A DNA stretch of 64,000 bases, taken from assembly GCA_905182555.1 (NCBI GenBank), contig CAJJBX010000018.1, positions 62,001-126,000 on the forward strand. The letters are read 5' to 3'. Of this stretch, positions 2,762 to 63,417 are shown in pieces. The notes beneath the pieces were generated by a model. The model worked only from the letters and a program-made list of their open reading frames with translations, was not told the DNA's origin and did not search any database. The position numbers and the translations under genes were made by a program. This stretch comes from an uncultured Ilumatobacter sp. Lineage in GTDB: Bacteria; Actinomycetota; Acidimicrobiia; Acidimicrobiales; Ilumatobacteraceae. Each line of letters opens with the position of its first letter. Position 1 is the first letter of the stretch.

Positions 2762-3255
2762 ATGAGCAAATGGGTGAACATCCTGCTGCAGCTGTTCAAG
2801 CAGGTCCAGGCAGCGCAGAAGGAACGCGAGAAGGGGACTGGCAAGCCACGCAAGCGAGCTGCTCCGCGGACGGAGCGAGTTGAGCACGGAACCCGTGTCG
2901 AGTACACCCCGGACCTCGACGGCGACCCTGATCCCGGCGAAGTCGTCTGGACCTGGGTGCCGTATGAGGAGGACCCGCTCCGCGGCAAGGATCGGCCCGT
3001 CGTGATCATCGGACGAACCGGCGACGACTTGGCTGGCGTGATGCTGACCTCGAAGAATAAGGGCCGCGACGACCGGGTGCCGGTTGGCAGTGGCGCATGG
3101 GATCCGAAGCGGCGTCCGAGGCTACGCAAAAGTTGACCCGGCTGCTGCGGATCGATCCGGACGACGTCCGGCGCGCAGGAGCGATCCTCGATGAAAATCG
3201 CTTCAACGACGTCGTTGGAAACCTCGCGAAGCACCACGACCTCGTCCGCAGATAG
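2762..3255 (+). pseudogene. PemK/MazF-like protein, frameshifted
   Basis: The first frame (2762-3136) encodes a basic N-terminal leader and then GEVVWTWVPYEEDPLRGKDRPVVIIGR-type sequence, characteristic of actinobacterial PemK/MazF-family proteins (mRNA interferase fold). The frame stops early at 3136. The expected C-terminal part (LTRLLRIDPDDVRR ... AGAILDENRFNDVV) continues in another frame to TAG at 3253-3255, so one indel at about 3107-3125 separates the halves. No antitoxin gene is adjacent; this subfamily is often solitary, so toxin activity is uncertain. Its stop codon lies inside a REP-like hairpin. It may be an intact gene with a sequencing error. Confidence 0.7.
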
Positions 3256-3292
3256 TTGCGTATGGGGTCAGGCCCCTTTCGCAACTATCTGC
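3248..3292. repeat. REP-like palindrome, family A copy 1
   Basis: 45-nt hairpin. The outer arms (3248-3260 and 3280-3292) are a perfect 13-bp inverted repeat. Inside is GGGG-TCAGG-CCCC, separated from the arms by TAT/TTT. The element overlaps the stop codon (3253-3255) of the PemK/MazF-like gene. The central 31 nt (GTTGCG to CGCAAC) recurs at 3877 and 19540. It resembles intergenic REP elements; no transposase is in the window. Confidence 0.85.
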
Positions 3293-3313
3293 GCTCGAAG
3301 TAGGTTGCCCATT

Positions 3314-3877: not shown

Positions 3878-3939
3878 TTACGTTTGGGGTCAGGCCCCTT
3901 TCGCAACAGTTGCGAAAGGGGCCTGACCCCAAACGCAAT
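3877..3939. repeat. REP-like doublet, family A copy 2
   Basis: Two family A units head to head. Bases 3881-3907 and 3909-3935 form a perfect 27-bp inverted repeat around a single base at 3908. Each arm contains a full GGGGTCAGGCCCC core. It fills the space between the convergent stops of two TIGR03086 genes (TAG 3875-3877 and the minus-strand stop at 3943) and could act as a bidirectional terminator. Confidence 0.85.
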
Positions 3940-16968: not shown

Positions 16969-17449
16969 GTGCAGCCCGAGTTTGGCGATGTCGCTGAGCC
17001 CGGCGTCGGCACAACCGAGTTCGACCTCGGAGCACAGCCGAGCACCCCAGAGATCCCGGTGGTCCCCGAGACCGGTGTGCCGGGTAGCGACAGCGTCGAT
17101 GCGTTCTGCCGTGACTGGAGCGGCCCAGCTGGCCCAGCTGGCCCAGCTGGCCCAGCTGGCCCAGCTGGCCCAGCTGGCCCAGCTGGCCCAGCTGGCCCAG
17201 CTGGCCCAGCTGGCCCAGCTGGCCGAGCAGGGCGTGGACGATCCGTTCCTTGACGTCGATTTTGCTGGGGTGGCTGACCCGACGCTGTTTGTAGCTGCCG
17301 TTGAGTCGTTCAGTACGACCTTCCCGTCAATCGTTATGGACCCGAGCTTGATTACCGACGTGCGGATCCCAACCACAGGCGCCTACCTGGGGGCCAACTG
17401 TCTTGATCGGGGCACTCTCGGAGGCGGCGACGTGATCATTGGTGATTGA
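16969..17449 (+). pseudogene. Decayed exported-protein-like gene containing a 9-bp repeat array
   Basis: Before the repeat, the natural-looking frame reads PEIPVVPETGVPGSDS and VDAFCRDWS. After it, the natural-looking frame is EQGVDDPFLDVDFAGVADP ... GGGDVIIGD ending at 17449. The two are one base apart, with the shift just before the repeat (around 17121-17124). The repeat itself would be read as (Ala-Gln-Leu)11 in the downstream frame or (Pro-Ala-Gly)11 in the upstream frame. The style (acidic, Pro-rich, a Cys near a Trp) resembles actinobacterial lipoproteins, but there is no signal peptide left, because the frame is closed by a stop at 16932-16934. I read it as a fragment of an unknown secreted protein. 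Confidence 0.5.
17126..17224. repeat. Tandem repeat, 11 exact copies of CAGCTGGCC
   Basis: 99 bases made of eleven identical 9-mers. Each unit contains the palindrome CAGCTG. The period is a multiple of three, so copy-number change keeps the reading frame. Perfect identity across all copies suggests recent expansion by slippage. Confidence 0.97.
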
Positions 17450-20883: not shown

Positions 20884-20931
20884 TTTGCGTCGAAGAACCG
20901 GTTGGACGGCCCTCCGGAATCTCGACGCAAA
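20884..20931. repeat. Cassette 1 hairpin, downstream copy
   Basis: 48-nt inverted repeat with 10-bp arms TTTGCGTCGA (20884-20893) and TCGACGCAAA (20922-20931) around a 28-nt centre that includes two CCGG sequences. It ends 4 bases before the stop codon of the AbiEi/DUF559 gene. The same arms and the same 48-nt length recur at 21871-21918. Confidence 0.85.
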
Positions 20932-20935
20932 TGGA

Positions 20936-21826
20936 TCATCGCAGGCGTTCGCGCAACGTTCGGGCGACCATCGCACTCCGTTGGGTGACATCGGCGTAGG
21001 TGTACTCGAACACCAGGACGCCCAGATCCTGGAGCTCGTTGCGACGTTGGGCGTCTTTGGCCCGATCCGTTGGCGATGAGTGTCCGTGTTGCCCGCTGAC
21101 TTCGATCACGATCTGCCGTTCCTTGAACAAGAAGTCGGCGCGTGCAACGTGGCGTGCGCCTTTGCGGTGCACGGCCTGCGTCAATGGACGAGGCAGCCTG
21201 TGTCGGCGAACCAACTCGAGGAATCGGCGTTCCAGCATCGAGTGTCCACCTGAGTCGACCATGAGGTCTTCGATGAGCCGGCAACCCCAGCGACCCGAAC
21301 CGCGCAGTGTCTCGAGTCGCCGCTCAATCGTGTGAGGTGCGGAGAGGCCAAGTCGCACCGCACTGTCAATTGCTGCCTCGACACGTGCCCGTCGCGCCCG
21401 AGCATGCGCGAGGTCCAAAATCGTCCGTGTCGCCGATGTTGTGCGGAAACCCTCGACGGTGACGATGTCGATTGCCGGCAGGCGGTTTGTGGTGTGGACG
21501 ACCAGATTCGTGTGGCCGGGGCGAGCTCGACGTGCCACGGTGAACTCAACCGCGCTGGGAACGGGCCGATCGAGATGGTGGAGCGCAGCGGCGGCTTCGT
21601 AGCTCACCACCGAGTGCTCGCCAAGCATCAGCAAGCCTCGTCGGAGCTCGAACCGGTGTGTACGTGGCGCGCCGGCGACGGCATACGTTCGGGGCCCGAC
21701 GCGTTCGAGCCACCCACTTCGAATGAGCTTGCGGCGCTGCCAGTCGGTCGACGCATAGGCGCGTATCTGGGCGTCAGTGATCAAGCCGTCCTGGTGCCGG
21801 GCAAGTGCTGCAATCTCTTGATTCAC
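20936..21826 (-). CDS. AbiEi-type winged-helix + DUF559 (Vsr-like) nuclease protein, hairpin-bracketed
   Basis: 296 residues from GTG 21826 (VNQEIAALARHQDGLITDAQ). The N-terminal ~65 residues form the AbiEi_4-like winged helix (LITDAQIRAYASTDWQRRKL and WLERVGPRTYAVAGAP). A middle domain with VVSYEAAAALHHL and an Arg-rich helix (TRTILDLAHARARRARVE) follows. The C-terminal part is a DUF559/Vsr-like PD-(D/E)xK nuclease fold with ARADFLFKERQIVIEVSG (catalytic D and E), then HGHSSPTDRAKDAQRRNELQ and VLVFEYTYADV. Such proteins are annotated as 'type IV TA system AbiEi antitoxin' or 'DUF559', but no AbiEii toxin gene is adjacent. The longer open frame upstream runs through the hairpin and is not coding. 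A second such gene is at 62411-63328. Confidence 0.82.
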   Translation of the reverse strand: MNQEIAALARHQDGLITDAQIRAYASTDWQRRKLIRSGWLERVGPRTYAVAGAPRTHRFELRRGLLMLGEHSVVSYEAAAALHHLDRPVPSAVEFTVARRARPGHTNLVVHTTNRLPAIDIVTVEGFRTTSATRTILDLAHARARRARVEAAIDSAVRLGLSAPHTIERRLETLRGSGRWGCRLIEDLMVDSGGHSMLERRFLELVRRHRLPRPLTQAVHRKGARHVARADFLFKERQIVIEVSGQHGHSSPTDRAKDAQRRNELQDLGVLVFEYTYADVTQRSAMVARTLRERLR

Positions 21827-21870
21827 GTCCAACAGTGGGGCCGATGCCCTGCCAGACGGAAAACCCAGGG

Positions 21871-21918
21871 TTTGCGTCGACGTTTCCGTGGACAGTCCAA
21901 CGGAAACATCGACGCAAA
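21871..21918. repeat. Cassette 1 hairpin, upstream copy
   Basis: 48-nt near-perfect inverted repeat. Outer arms TTTGCGTCGA/TCGACGCAAA are identical to those of the downstream copy. Inner arms GTTTCCGT (21882-21889) and ACGGAAAC (21900-21907) are followed by GGAC/GTCC at the tip. It lies 44 bases upstream of the AbiEi/DUF559 start, in the divergent region with the glycosyltransferase gene, where a terminator would not be expected. Confidence 0.87.
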
Positions 21919-21990
21919 CGTTCAGCAGGAGCGGGCGGAGTGGGAAGCTGGGCAGGGTCTGTGGTGGCCGTGTGCGTAGGATCGGTTCTC

Positions 21991-39986: not shown

Positions 39987-41402
<1,416 letters not shown>

Positions 41403-44877: not shown

Positions 44878-44914
44878 GCGGTCACACTGTGTCAGGCACA
44901 GTGTGACCGGTCAC
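44878..44914. repeat. REP-like palindrome, family B copy 2
   Basis: 37 nt identical to copy 1. Stem 44880-44891/44897-44908, loop TCAGG. It supplies the last seven sense codons and the stop codon of mfd (44892-44894 on the minus strand). Confidence 0.9.
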
Positions 44915-60390: not shown

Positions 60391-61250
60391 GCGTTGCACT
60401 CTTTGGGATGGACCGCGCCGACATCGGGTTGGCGGGCCTCGCAGCGTCAGGTGGCCTGATTGCTGTGGGCGTCGGCATCTCGTTCTGGCGGGGGCTCGGC
60501 CTCGAACGTTCGCTGCTTTGGGCGGCCCTGCGTGCACTCATCCAACTCCTTATCGTGGGCTGGGCCCTGCAACTGGTTGTCGACCCCAACGACTCGCTGA
60601 TCTGGTCGGGTGTCTGGCTGCTGTTTATGCTTGCGTTTGCGGCATGGACGACGGCCCAACGTGCTGCCGAGGTGCCGAAGGTCTTCGCACTTTCCCTTTT
60701 GGCCTACGCGCTGTCGGGTGTCGTGACGCTCGGGGTTCTCTTTGGCTTCCAGGTGTACGAGTTGGAGGGCCGGACGATCGTCCCGCTTGCCGGAATCGTC
60801 GTCGGCAATTCGCTGTCGGCGACGGTCTTGGTGTCACGCCAAATACTCGAAGCTGCAAGCGAGCAGCGCGGCGTGATCGAAGGGCGGTTGGCGCTCGGCC
60901 TCTCAGCGCGTGATGCCTTCCAGCCACATCTGCAACGCGCGTTGCGGACTGCGCTTGTGCCTCAAATCGAGACCACCAAGGCGGTCGGCATCGTCGCTCT
61001 GCCGGGCGCGATGGTCGGATTGATTCTTGCCGGCGTCGATCCTGCCGACGCGGTGATGGTGCAGATCTCGGTGATGTACCTCGTGCTGGGCAGCGTGGCG
61101 ACGACGACGACGGTGATGATGATGGCATTTCACGCGAACTCTTCACATCTGCTCAACAGCTCCGTCGACTCTGACGCGGTCACACTGTGCCTGGCACAGT
61201 GTGACCGGGCGGTAGCGTGGCTTGCCGCATGGAACGTTTTGGCTTGGTAG
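60387..61250 (+). CDS. fetB: UPF0014 permease, FetB-type, altered 3' end
   Basis: 287 residues with about seven helices. LRALIQLLIVGWALQLV, LAGIVVGNSLSATVLVSRQIL, EGRLALGLSARDAFQPHLQRALRTALVPQ and the late GIVALPGAMVGLILAGVDPADAV match UPF0014/FetB. The conserved family end after MMMAFHA is replaced: the last ~25 residues (SDAVTLCLAQCDRAVAWL and on) are read through a family B palindrome and into the first 22 bases of ychF. So insertion of the element appears to have changed the C-terminus. Confidence 0.85.
   Translation: MSVALFGMDRADIGLAGLAASGGLIAVGVGISFWRGLGLERSLLWAALRALIQLLIVGWALQLVVDPNDSLIWSGVWLLFMLAFAAWTTAQRAAEVPKVFALSLLAYALSGVVTLGVLFGFQVYELEGRTIVPLAGIVVGNSLSATVLVSRQILEAASEQRGVIEGRLALGLSARDAFQPHLQRALRTALVPQIETTKAVGIVALPGAMVGLILAGVDPADAVMVQISVMYLVLGSVATTTTVMMMAFHANSSHLLNSSVDSDAVTLCLAQCDRAVAWLAAWNVLAW
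61176..61206. repeat. REP-like palindrome, family B copy 3
   Basis: Same perfect 12-bp stem (GGTCACACTGTG 61178-61189; CACAGTGTGACC 61195-61206), but loop CCTGG, close to the reverse complement (CCTGA) of the TCAGG loop of copies 1 and 2, so in the opposite orientation. Inside the 3' end of fetB, 22 bases before ychF. Confidence 0.88.
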
Positions 61251-62313
61251 GTCTTCCGAACGCGGGTAAAAGCTCGCTCTACAACGCACTCACCGGTGGT
61301 GGCGCCCTGGCGGCGCCCTACCCGTTTGCCACGAAAGACCCGAACATCGGCGTCGCGAAGGTGCCCGACGACCGGCTCGATCGCCTGGCGGTTATGTCGA
61401 AGTCGAAGAAGGTTGTCCATGCACAGGTCGAGGTCGTCGACATTGGTGGCCTGGTCGAGGGCGCAAGCACGGGCGAAGGTTTGGGCAACAAGTTCCTTGC
61501 CAACATTCGCGAAGTCGATGCAATCGTGTTCGTGCTTCGGGCATTCGAGGATGACGATGTCGTCGGGCCGTCCGATCCGATCGAACACCTCCGCGTCGTC
61601 GAGATCGAGCTGGCGCTGGCCGACCTCGAGACCGTCGAGAAACGGCTCAAGCAGACCCAACGCGCCGCGAAGCTCGACAAGTCAATGGTTGCCGAGACCG
61701 AAGCGCTACAAATTGCCTACGACCAACTCGCCGAAGGCCTGCCGCTCTACCGCGCCGGCCTGAAGGACGACGTCAAAGAGCTCCTCGCCCCGTACTACCT
61801 CTTGACGAACCGACGCGTGCTCGCGATTGTCAACGTCGGCGAAGACGACATCGATTCGATCCCGGAGAAAGAGAAGTTGGTCTCCGACGAGTTCAACAAC
61901 GTCGGCGACAACGTCGGCGACGTCGCCGGCATGGGATCCGATATTTTCGAATCCTATTGCGGTGCACCGACGAGCGCAAGGAAATCCTCGAAGGCTTCGG
62001 TCTCGGCGAAGGCGCCCTGTTTCGGATGGTGCGCAGCGCCTATCACCTGCTCGGCCTTCGCACGTTTTTGACAACTGGCGAGCAGGAATCGCGAGCATGG
62101 ACGTTCCGCGAGGGCTCGACGGCGCCGGTGTGTGCCGGGCGGATCCACGGCGACTTCCAGCGCGGCTTCATCCGCGCCGAAGTGATCCAGTGGGACGAAC
62201 TCCTCGAACTTGGTTCGTGGAATGCGGCCAAAGAGGTCGGCAAGATGCGCGTTGAAGGCAAGGACTACATCGCCCAAGACGGCGACGTGATGGAATTCCG
62301 CTTCAACGTCTGA
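61229..62313 (+). CDS. ychF: GTP/ATP-binding protein YchF, with foreign internal segment and frameshift
   Basis: Obg-related ATPase/GTPase that binds ribosomes. G1 GLPNAGKSSLYNAL, G3 VVDIGGLVEGAS, and TGS domain at the end (SRAWTFREGSTAPVCAGRIHGD, KDYIAQDGDVMEFRFNV). The N-terminal frame is normal to EKEKLVSDEFN (about 61900). Then it reads GDNVGDVAGMGSDIFESYCG, which is a signature of membrane pyrophosphatases (HppA), not YchF. The YchF sequence resumes in another frame at about 61960 with ERKEILEGFGLGEGALFRMV. Total length still equals a normal ychF, so about 70 bases seem substituted rather than inserted. Confidence 0.88.
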
Positions 62314-62350: not shown

Positions 62351-62393
62351 CTCGGGACAGTTCTGGGCGGATACCGCTGTTTCACGTCCCGAG
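62351..62393. repeat. Cassette 2 hairpin, downstream copy
   Basis: 43 nt: arms CTCGGGAC and GTCCCGAG, 8-nt spacers, inner stem GCGG-ATA-CCGC. Located 17 bases past the stop of the second AbiEi/DUF559 gene, between it and the convergent ychF. Matched copy at 63375-63417. Confidence 0.85.
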
Positions 62394-62410
62394 TTCGCTG
62401 CGTCTGGCCG

Positions 62411-63328
62411 TCAGCGTGCGTCTGGTACCTCGAGGTGTTTCCAGCGTGCGAGTGCCCGTCGGATGCGGACTGCTGTGCCACCTGGATCGTTGACGATCGA
62501 CCGATAGCTGAACCGGAGCATCTGCCAGCCGGCGTTGGTGAGGTCGCTGTCTTTGAGGCGGTCACGTTCGAACTGGGTGCGGTCGAGGCCGTGTGTTGAC
62601 CATCCGTCGCATTCCACGAGTACTGCCGTGCCAGCGAAGCGGAAGTCGATTTCCCATCCAGCAATGCGTTCGTGGAACGTGGTTGACGGAAGCTGATGAC
62701 GTTGGACGAGTTTGGCAAAGACGGCTTCGAGGACCGAGTCGGCGGGTCGATGATCGATTTCCCATTCATCGATGGCGGCACGGAGCGCAGGTATCCCGGG
62801 CCGGCCGCGGTGGCTGTGCTGAACCGCGGCTGCGGTGAGCGCGTCCAGGTTGAGGAGGCGGCGGCTGAGCGCAACTCCGACTGCCGGCTCGACCAGTAAT
62901 GGGTCGTCGGCTCCGAGGTCACACAGGGTGCGGAGCGGGTCGGTGCAGCGGATTCCGTGGCGACGTTGGGGCGTGAGTCGCTGACGGTCGGTTGGCCGAT
63001 GCAAAACGACGCCGGCCAGGCGGGGTCGGCGGTTTCGTTCAGGCACGGTGAGGTGGACGAGTGCAGCTGCCGGCTCGATCAGGTTCCACAGCATGGCCGC
63101 GGACTGGTGCGAGGCCATTGCTTGGCCCCCTGCGGCCAGAACGGCTGCATGGATCCCTTGGCGTTGATCAGTCGGCGCGCCGGGGAGCCGGGCAACGCAG
63201 CGGTGGATCTCGATCAACGAGCCTGCACGTATCGCACGACGCCAGGCGTCGACGCTGAGCCCGGACGCGCCCAAGGTAATGAGGCCGTGATGCTGGCGCG
63301 CCCAGTCATCGAAGTCGGAGAGTCGCAT
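62411..63328 (-). CDS. AbiEi-type winged-helix + DUF559 (Vsr-like) nuclease protein, hairpin-bracketed (second)
   Basis: 305 residues. N-terminal winged helix (DFDDWARQHHGLITLGASGL, DAWRRAIRAGSLIEIHRCV), middle domain (ASHQSAAMLWNLIEPA, GIRCTDPLRTLCDLGA), C-terminal DUF559 nuclease: WEIDFRFAGTAVLVECDGW (D and E-x-D), HGLDRTQFERDRLKDSDLT, and GWQMLRFSYRSIV. Same architecture as the protein at 20936-21826 but strongly diverged in sequence. No partner toxin is adjacent. Enclosed by two 43-nt hairpins; divergent from the PHP-domain gene. Confidence 0.87.
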   Translation of the reverse strand: MRLSDFDDWARQHHGLITLGASGLSVDAWRRAIRAGSLIEIHRCVARLPGAPTDQRQGIHAAVLAAGGQAMASHQSAAMLWNLIEPAAALVHLTVPERNRRPRLAGVVLHRPTDRQRLTPQRRHGIRCTDPLRTLCDLGADDPLLVEPAVGVALSRRLLNLDALTAAAVQHSHRGRPGIPALRAAIDEWEIDHRPADSVLEAVFAKLVQRHQLPSTTFHERIAGWEIDFRFAGTAVLVECDGWSTHGLDRTQFERDRLKDSDLTNAGWQMLRFSYRSIVNDPGGTAVRIRRALARWKHLEVPDAR

Positions 63329-63374
63329 GCCATGACAGTGGGCATGGTTGGGGCCGACGAGGAAGCACCGGAAT

Positions 63375-63417
63375 CTCGGGACGCGCTGTTGCGGAATCCG
63401 CTGCTGTTTGTCCCGAG
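63375..63417. repeat. Cassette 2 hairpin, upstream copy
   Basis: 43 nt with exactly the layout of the downstream copy: CTCGGGAC, 8-nt spacer, GCGG-AAT-CCGC, 8-nt spacer, GTCCCGAG. It is 46 bases upstream of the gene start, in a divergent promoter region. Confidence 0.85.

Follow-up and report, generated by a model that had tools for sequence, protein, structure and literature searches.

The closest described counterparts of the locus studied here are the RAYT/REP systems. In these, one gene lies between two palindromic repeats, solo copies of the repeats are dispersed, and protein and repeats co-vary; orthologous genes stay in place while their flanking repeats change (both in passages of PMC2817692). 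The RAYT enzyme is of the Y1/HUH type. TIRtrons, in which genes or repeats have inverted, partly self-complementary ends, still encode tyrosine transposases, and palindrome families without a dedicated transposase have been reported, the CGTC REPs apparently being without one (excerpts of PMC3733652). AbiEi antitoxins and Rv2827c bind to inverted repeats of 23 bp in the promoters upstream of their own genes, as a part of PMC7319586 describes. The domain MTES_1575 is a Vsr-type nuclease domain according to a section of PMC3710099. Within the accessible text of the open-licence PMC literature, we found no paper that ties DUF559 to AbiEi, or to inverted repeats plus a transposase.

We found a unit that shares these RAYT/REP properties, the enzyme excepted, and the inverted, partly self-complementary ends of TIRtrons, in the window (the whole stretch of 64,000 nucleotides that was analysed). 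The organisation, the dispersal and the presence or absence of such units can be read from sequence. Gene 2 and its two hairpins probably form a REPtron-like unit with an AbiEi-like/PD-(D/E)XK nuclease instead of the HUH transposase. The unit most likely works like a REPtron, as a REP-like partnership in which an AbiEi-Vsr nuclease is the enzyme. It falls outside the RAYT/REP class, because the defining Y1/HUH enzyme is absent; TIRtrons, with their tyrosine transposases, differ from it in the same respect.

Table 1. Features of the two gene-hairpin cassettes (window coordinates).
Feature	Position	Strand	Description
Cassette 1 downstream hairpin	20884..20931		48 nt, arms TTTGCGTCGA/TCGACGCAAA
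Gene 1	about 20936..21841	-	Second family gene; 28% identity to gene 2
Cassette 1 upstream hairpin	21870..21919		50 nt, arms GTTTGCGTCGA/TCGACGCAAAC
Downstream hairpin of gene 2	62351..62393		43 nt, arms CTCGGGAC/GTCCCGAG, inner GCGG/CCGC
Gene 2	62411..63328	-	305 aa; predicted AbiEi-like fold and C-terminal Vsr/DUF559/MTES_1575 nuclease domain
Upstream hairpin of gene 2	63375..63417		43 nt, plan and arms as at 62351..62393

The preliminary description had placed two 43-nt hairpins around gene 2, and the sequence bears out their positions and that of the gene (Table 1). The downstream hairpin reads CTCGGGAC AGTTCTGG GCGG ATA CCGC TGTTTCAC GTCCCGAG and the upstream one CTCGGGAC GCGCTGTT GCGG AAT CCGC TGCTGTTT GTCCCGAG. 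Both thus follow the plan 8-8-4-3-4-8-8, with identical outer arms and inner GCGG/CCGC. Gene 2 is on the minus strand, which puts the hairpin at 63375-63417 5′ of its start, at a distance of 46 nt; the complete unit measures 1067 bp. Its neighbours are ychF and polX. The ychF gene of the window (61217-62313) is split into two overlapping frames, possibly by a frameshift or an assembly error, and points the opposite way from ychF at the polX locus of relatives.

Cassette 1 was originally described as built alike. The bracket layout is indeed common to both cassettes, but the hairpins of cassette 1 are 48 and 50 nt long with arms of 10-11 nt, so they depart from the 8-8-4-3-4-8-8 plan of cassette 2. 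The start codon of gene 1 is uncertain, and its longest open reading frame extends to 22132. The home genome is a metagenome-assembled genome (MAG; G000) of 2.56 Mb that is 73% complete; within the named collection, it matches an uncultured Ilumatobacter most closely (98% protein identity). It contains just two family genes at E<=0.01, both in the cassettes of the window. An Rfam scan of the window at gathering scores gave one tRNA as the sole match. The window also carries a 31-nt palindrome of another type (CGGTCACACTGTGTCAGGCACAGTGTGACCG) in three copies (39988-40018, 44879-44909 and 61177-61207) and a tandem 9-bp repeat, CCAGCTGGC, at 17125-17222.

The gene 2 protein is predicted to join an AbiEi-like DNA-binding fold to a PD-(D/E)XK nuclease of the Vsr/I-Bth0305I type. 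It had been labelled AbiEi/DUF559. The second half of this label agrees with Pfam, in which DUF559 scores above its cut-off (MTES_1575, at 34.7 bits, lies below its cut-off of 38.2), while the first half finds no AbiEi match at E<=1. We retain the AbiEi assignment because relatives match AbiEi_4 (16 of 31 at E<=0.1) and because of the predicted fold. No transposase domain is among the Pfam matches. An AlphaFold2 model built with 34 sequences (mean pLDDT 87.9) was compared with solved structures using Foldseek. The matches were AbiEi of S. agalactiae (6y8q_A, E 1.9e-6, TM to target 0.58), Rv2827c (1zel), the catalytic domain of I-Bth0305I (3r3p, TM to target 0.78), which the C-terminal domain resembles, and more weakly Vsr (1cw0, E 0.035). 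A profile search with the protein returned 3hrl and 3r3p. Residues D228 and E239 are invariant in 34 aligned rows, and E201 and H246 are nearly so.

In comparison with AbiEi and Rv2827c, the protein has an extra C-terminal nuclease domain, and the repeats flank the gene on either side and also occur dispersed. In comparison with I-Bth0305I and Vsr, there is no intron, the nuclease is fused to an AbiEi-like module, and the ends are palindromic. The gene family is under constraint, with dN/dS of 0.04-0.12 in four comparisons (0.12 for gene 2 against its relative L110 in G110), whereas rayt genes are said to evolve rapidly. We rejected phage or plasmid cargo as an origin: one scan of viruses via two peptide patterns gave a single weak partial match (29%), plasmids gave two partial matches, and neither yielded a close relative.

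Chance palindromes can be rejected as the origin of the matched pairs. Among 1451 overlapping control placements in the window, none had a palindrome pair of equal length (±1) with a common 7-nt arm, and four had such a pair of any length. This agrees with the earlier claim that the pairing goes beyond chance. The flank survey suggested along with that claim, run on relatives of gene 2 only, found matched pairs at 16 of 32 testable loci, as against 5 of 320 swapped-flank controls (given as a total, not itemised). The survey set came from the named collection: 42 relatives were fetched and 40 tabulated, L150 and L151 being left out, and eight of the 40 had less than 180 bp on one side. Cultured organisms with a relative in this collection include Ilumatobacter nonamiensis YM16-303 and Desertimonas flava. 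The loci L135, L136 and L138 are sisters with common arms and are therefore not independent. When the survey score was applied in a sliding control to the window and nine loci, 2 of 1094 placements passed, both in L048, which itself holds a cassette. The 16 testable loci without a stringent matched pair count against the REPtron-like reading.

In an earlier set of 31 loci, a same-arm palindrome of any length was present on both sides in 22 and absent in nine, three of which had less than 180 bp on one side; the nine, too, count against the REPtron-like reading. Several sequences, e.g. L009 and L110, are common to both surveys, which are therefore not independent. One search of 150 genomes of the family located relatives in 76. 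A relative of the gene family is also carried by L145, a contig titled Bifidobacterium breve that is possibly a mislabelled MAG. In L111, L134, L135, L136 and L138, one hairpin is clearly the reverse complement of the other, in its interior as well. The orientation of the window pair is uninformative (12 vs 13 of 27). In L116, the direct orientation fits better than the inverted one, which counts against the REPtron-like reading.

The preliminary description had proposed that protein and hairpin co-evolve, as in RAYT/REP. When every pair among 21 cassettes is compared, hairpin similarity follows protein similarity (Mantel r=0.75, p=2e-4, with the hairpins of L112, L115 and L134 picked by eye or from earlier surveys, not by the survey score), which supports the proposal, and shared descent contributes to this correlation. 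For the 200 pairs with less than 60% protein identity, r is 0.38 (p=2e-4).

The polX-ychF locus allows a comparison at a fixed position. A family gene lies between polX and ychF in G012, G050, G076 and G088, as well as in G017 from a different genus; in some of these genomes, the interval also contains up to several kb of other sequence. In G064, a family gene is located beside ychF. In G034, polX and ychF are adjacent, the gene is absent, and a search of the genome gave no match. The arms at this locus are CTCGGGAC in G000 and G110, TGCGGAAT in G017 and CTCTGGTC in G012, where the two hairpins are of unequal length; G076 and G088 have decayed CTGTGGAC-like hairpins, read by eye. The same position thus has different arms in different species, in keeping with the earlier statement that each gene has its own matched hairpins. 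Given that the gene is present at this locus in two genera, movement there is rare, if it occurs, which counts against the REPtron-like reading. Beside polX in the complete genome G012 (L045:3540-3870), we also observed a cluster of short CGTCTCACC-type repeats.

Copies of the hairpins are dispersed, each type within the lineage of its gene. With up to three mismatches, the CTCGGGAC plan occurs seven times in the home genome (flanking pair included), ten times in G110, six times in G088 and three times in G076. It has no copies in six other genomes of the genus, and a reversed-pattern control gave none in all ten. The cassette 1 arms, TTGCGTCGA..TCGACGCAA, occur eight times in the home genome (flanking pair included), three times in G110 and not in eight other genomes, with none in the control. 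In the related genus g22, copies of the GATCTGGTC family with intact or one-mismatch arms are present in 8 of 24 genomes among the matches listed; of the other 16, again among the matches listed, 15 have only matches with two or three mismatches, and one has none. The reversed control for GATCTGGTC gave 2, 1, 1 and 2 matches in G022, G056, G161 and G069. In G056, this search with up to three mismatches, which is less biased than the comparison of orthologous sites below, gives 12 copies with no mismatch and one copy with one, and its five three-mismatch matches have unrelated interiors. Palindromes of the form GATCTGG..CCAGATC are numerous in two other genera (by pattern, 35 in G078 and 12 in G007).

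It is extremely unlikely that these repeats are classical REPs mobilised by a Y1/HUH RAYT encoded elsewhere, with the DUF559 genes as passengers. A single Y1_Tnp match is indeed present in each of G000, G110 and five other tested genomes outside g22. However, the Y1_Tnp genes of G000 and G110 sit between inverted GGGGTCAGGCCCC repeats, whose sequence is unrelated to the hairpins. Moreover, Y1_Tnp was found at E<=0.001 in none of ten g22 genomes, several of them incomplete, and the Y1_Tnp-free genomes G056 (97% complete), G069 (91%) and G125 (92%) hold 12-17 hairpins. We therefore largely reject a RAYT as the mobiliser in g22 and consider it unlikely in the home genome, where it has its own GGGGTCAGGCCCC REPs.

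In the window, GGGGTCAGGCCCC repeats occur at 3266, 3888, 3919 and 19551. Copies of the form GTTGCG..GGGGTCAGGCCCC..CGCAAC (3247-3293, 3881-3935 and 19551) resemble the bounds of the Y1_Tnp gene of the home genome (G000:C2:132558-132893). Three gene-linked palindrome families have copies in the window: two belong to the new type, and the third to the classical RAYT type, with its gene elsewhere in the home genome.

The arms are conserved while the spacers drift. At 15 orthologous g22 sites (13 solos and two cassette ends, seeded by hairpin matches), substitutions were found at 1 of 270 arm positions, 47 of 480 spacer positions and 340 of 2484 flank positions, where the genome pair with the most spacer changes was chosen for each site, a choice that favours a reading of arm conservation. 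At both site H and site J, a single change in the arms is seen in other genome pairs. Between G000 and G110, two cassette ends and four solos differ at 8 of 144 arm positions and 31 of 114 spacer positions.

Arms under strong constraint and spacers under weaker constraint would also be expected of a domesticated regulator. The hairpins would then be duplex binding sites of an AbiEi-type protein, serving as operators or in chromosome organisation; they would flank the gene for autoregulation and insulation, and binding would keep the arms without any movement. The promoter repeats bound by AbiEi and Rv2827c (PMC7319586, in part) fit this explanation, as do the low dN/dS and the age and vertical inheritance of the solos. 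The outer edge of the upstream hairpin also lies 81-93 nt 5′ of the start in 7 of 16 positive loci, and 89 nt in the window. We nevertheless regard a pure regulator as unlikely, though it deserves some weight: it gives no reason for a second hairpin downstream, for the precise absence of the unit as a whole, or for the presence of invariant acidic residues in a nuclease domain.

Many solos lie near gene ends. Among 44 solo sites, which include orthologues and are therefore not independent, 20 are between convergent stops, and 16 were left unplaced, covered by a naive ORF. The nearest stop is at a median distance of 8 nt (27 measurable sites). For comparison, the window has 34 gaps by the same naive ORF calls, 10 of them convergent. 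These positions would suit bidirectional terminators or 3′-end mRNA stabilisers that flank the gene by coincidence, a function that could coexist with the REPtron-like one. As the explanation of the unit it is very unlikely, since the upstream hairpin precedes the gene start, the arms vary by gene family and track the protein lineage, and the plan has no T-run.

Most of the solos that were compared are common to several species and are therefore old, which counts against the REPtron-like reading. Some have decayed. G069 and G125 have one solo that G056 lacks, a difference not resolved to base level. In G125, a second solo stands next to an older one; this second solo is missing from G056, G069 and G155, and G150 has a similar double solo.

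In g22, synteny between species ends at the edge of a solo hairpin in L165, L166, L167, L158, L160, L156 and L157, and gene gain or loss adjoins the solos at these breaks. Because synteny ends at some hairpins, we considered an analogy to integron attC sites. It was set aside, as no second hairpin bounds the variable segment in the loci checked.

The unit at L135 shows precise presence or absence within g22. G056, G069 and G125 carry it, and G160 shows its left part, at which the contig ends. G161, G155, G162 and G150 lack the unit, and their two flanks adjoin with 2 bp separating them. The empty site reads CGCAAG-GC-TTAGAC (CGTAAG in two genomes), and the filled site of G056 reads CGCAAGAAGTAG-GCGATCTGG...CCAGATCGC-TTG-TTAGAC. 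The gene at this spot in four outgroup genomes is unrelated and, by eye, serine hydrolase-like. In both flank trees, the empty G150 is sister to the filled G125 (support 0.993 and 0.995), with the outgroup poorly placed in the left flank tree. Given this grouping, the difference reflects a precise loss, an allele exchange or a repeated gain. Together with the outgroup gene, this leaves room for either polarity, which counts against the REPtron-like reading.

The L135 junction, the one that was resolved, has no clear target-site duplication, and none evident beyond 2-3 bp, which counts against the REPtron-like reading; in this, and in having no transposase domain, the unit differs from DDE-type insertion sequences. 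No family gene was found at E<=1e-20 in G150, G161 and G162, MAGs that are 62-80% complete. These three genomes still hold solos with intact arms, which counts against the REPtron-like reading.

Precise filled and empty alleles would also result from a free-standing homing-endonuclease element, whose nuclease cuts the empty site so that repair copies the unit in, the hairpins only protecting it or stopping transcription. I-Bth0305I is among the solved relatives of the nuclease domain. We judge such an element improbable: it predicts neither dispersed solo hairpins nor hairpins that track the protein lineage.

The REPtron-like reading suggests the following mechanism. The DNA-binding module would recognise the palindrome arms, and the nuclease may nick or cut at the hairpin or close to it. 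Dispersed hairpins would be non-autonomous copies, with nuclease activity responsible for their spread and for the maintenance of their arms. The upstream hairpin may double as an operator for autoregulation, as in AbiEi antitoxins. Binding, cutting or movement of the hairpins by the nuclease is an inference.

Several properties set the unit apart from RAYT/REP systems besides its enzyme and its low dN/dS. By the patterns used, there are 3 to 35 copies, whereas REPs usually exceed 100. Most of the hairpins are 37-52 nt long with large interior loops, and one genus shows precise presence or absence of the entire unit. A further possibility, which falls somewhat short of probable, is that the units are a separate class of small mobile element, consisting of an AbiEi-Vsr/DUF559 nuclease with hairpin ends, that would insert and excise precisely as a block and seed solos. 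REP-like repeats would then have at least two origins, one with HUH and another with PD-(D/E)XK enzymes. The alternatives are not mutually exclusive and may overlap with the REPtron-like reading.

If the REPtron-like reading is true, a second, unrelated enzyme family would be tied to REP-like repeats and become a candidate partner for orphan palindromes. Recognition of hairpins by a Vsr-type nuclease would become directly testable. The reading would also point to a role for the functionally uncharacterised AbiEi/DUF559 genes of Acidimicrobiia.
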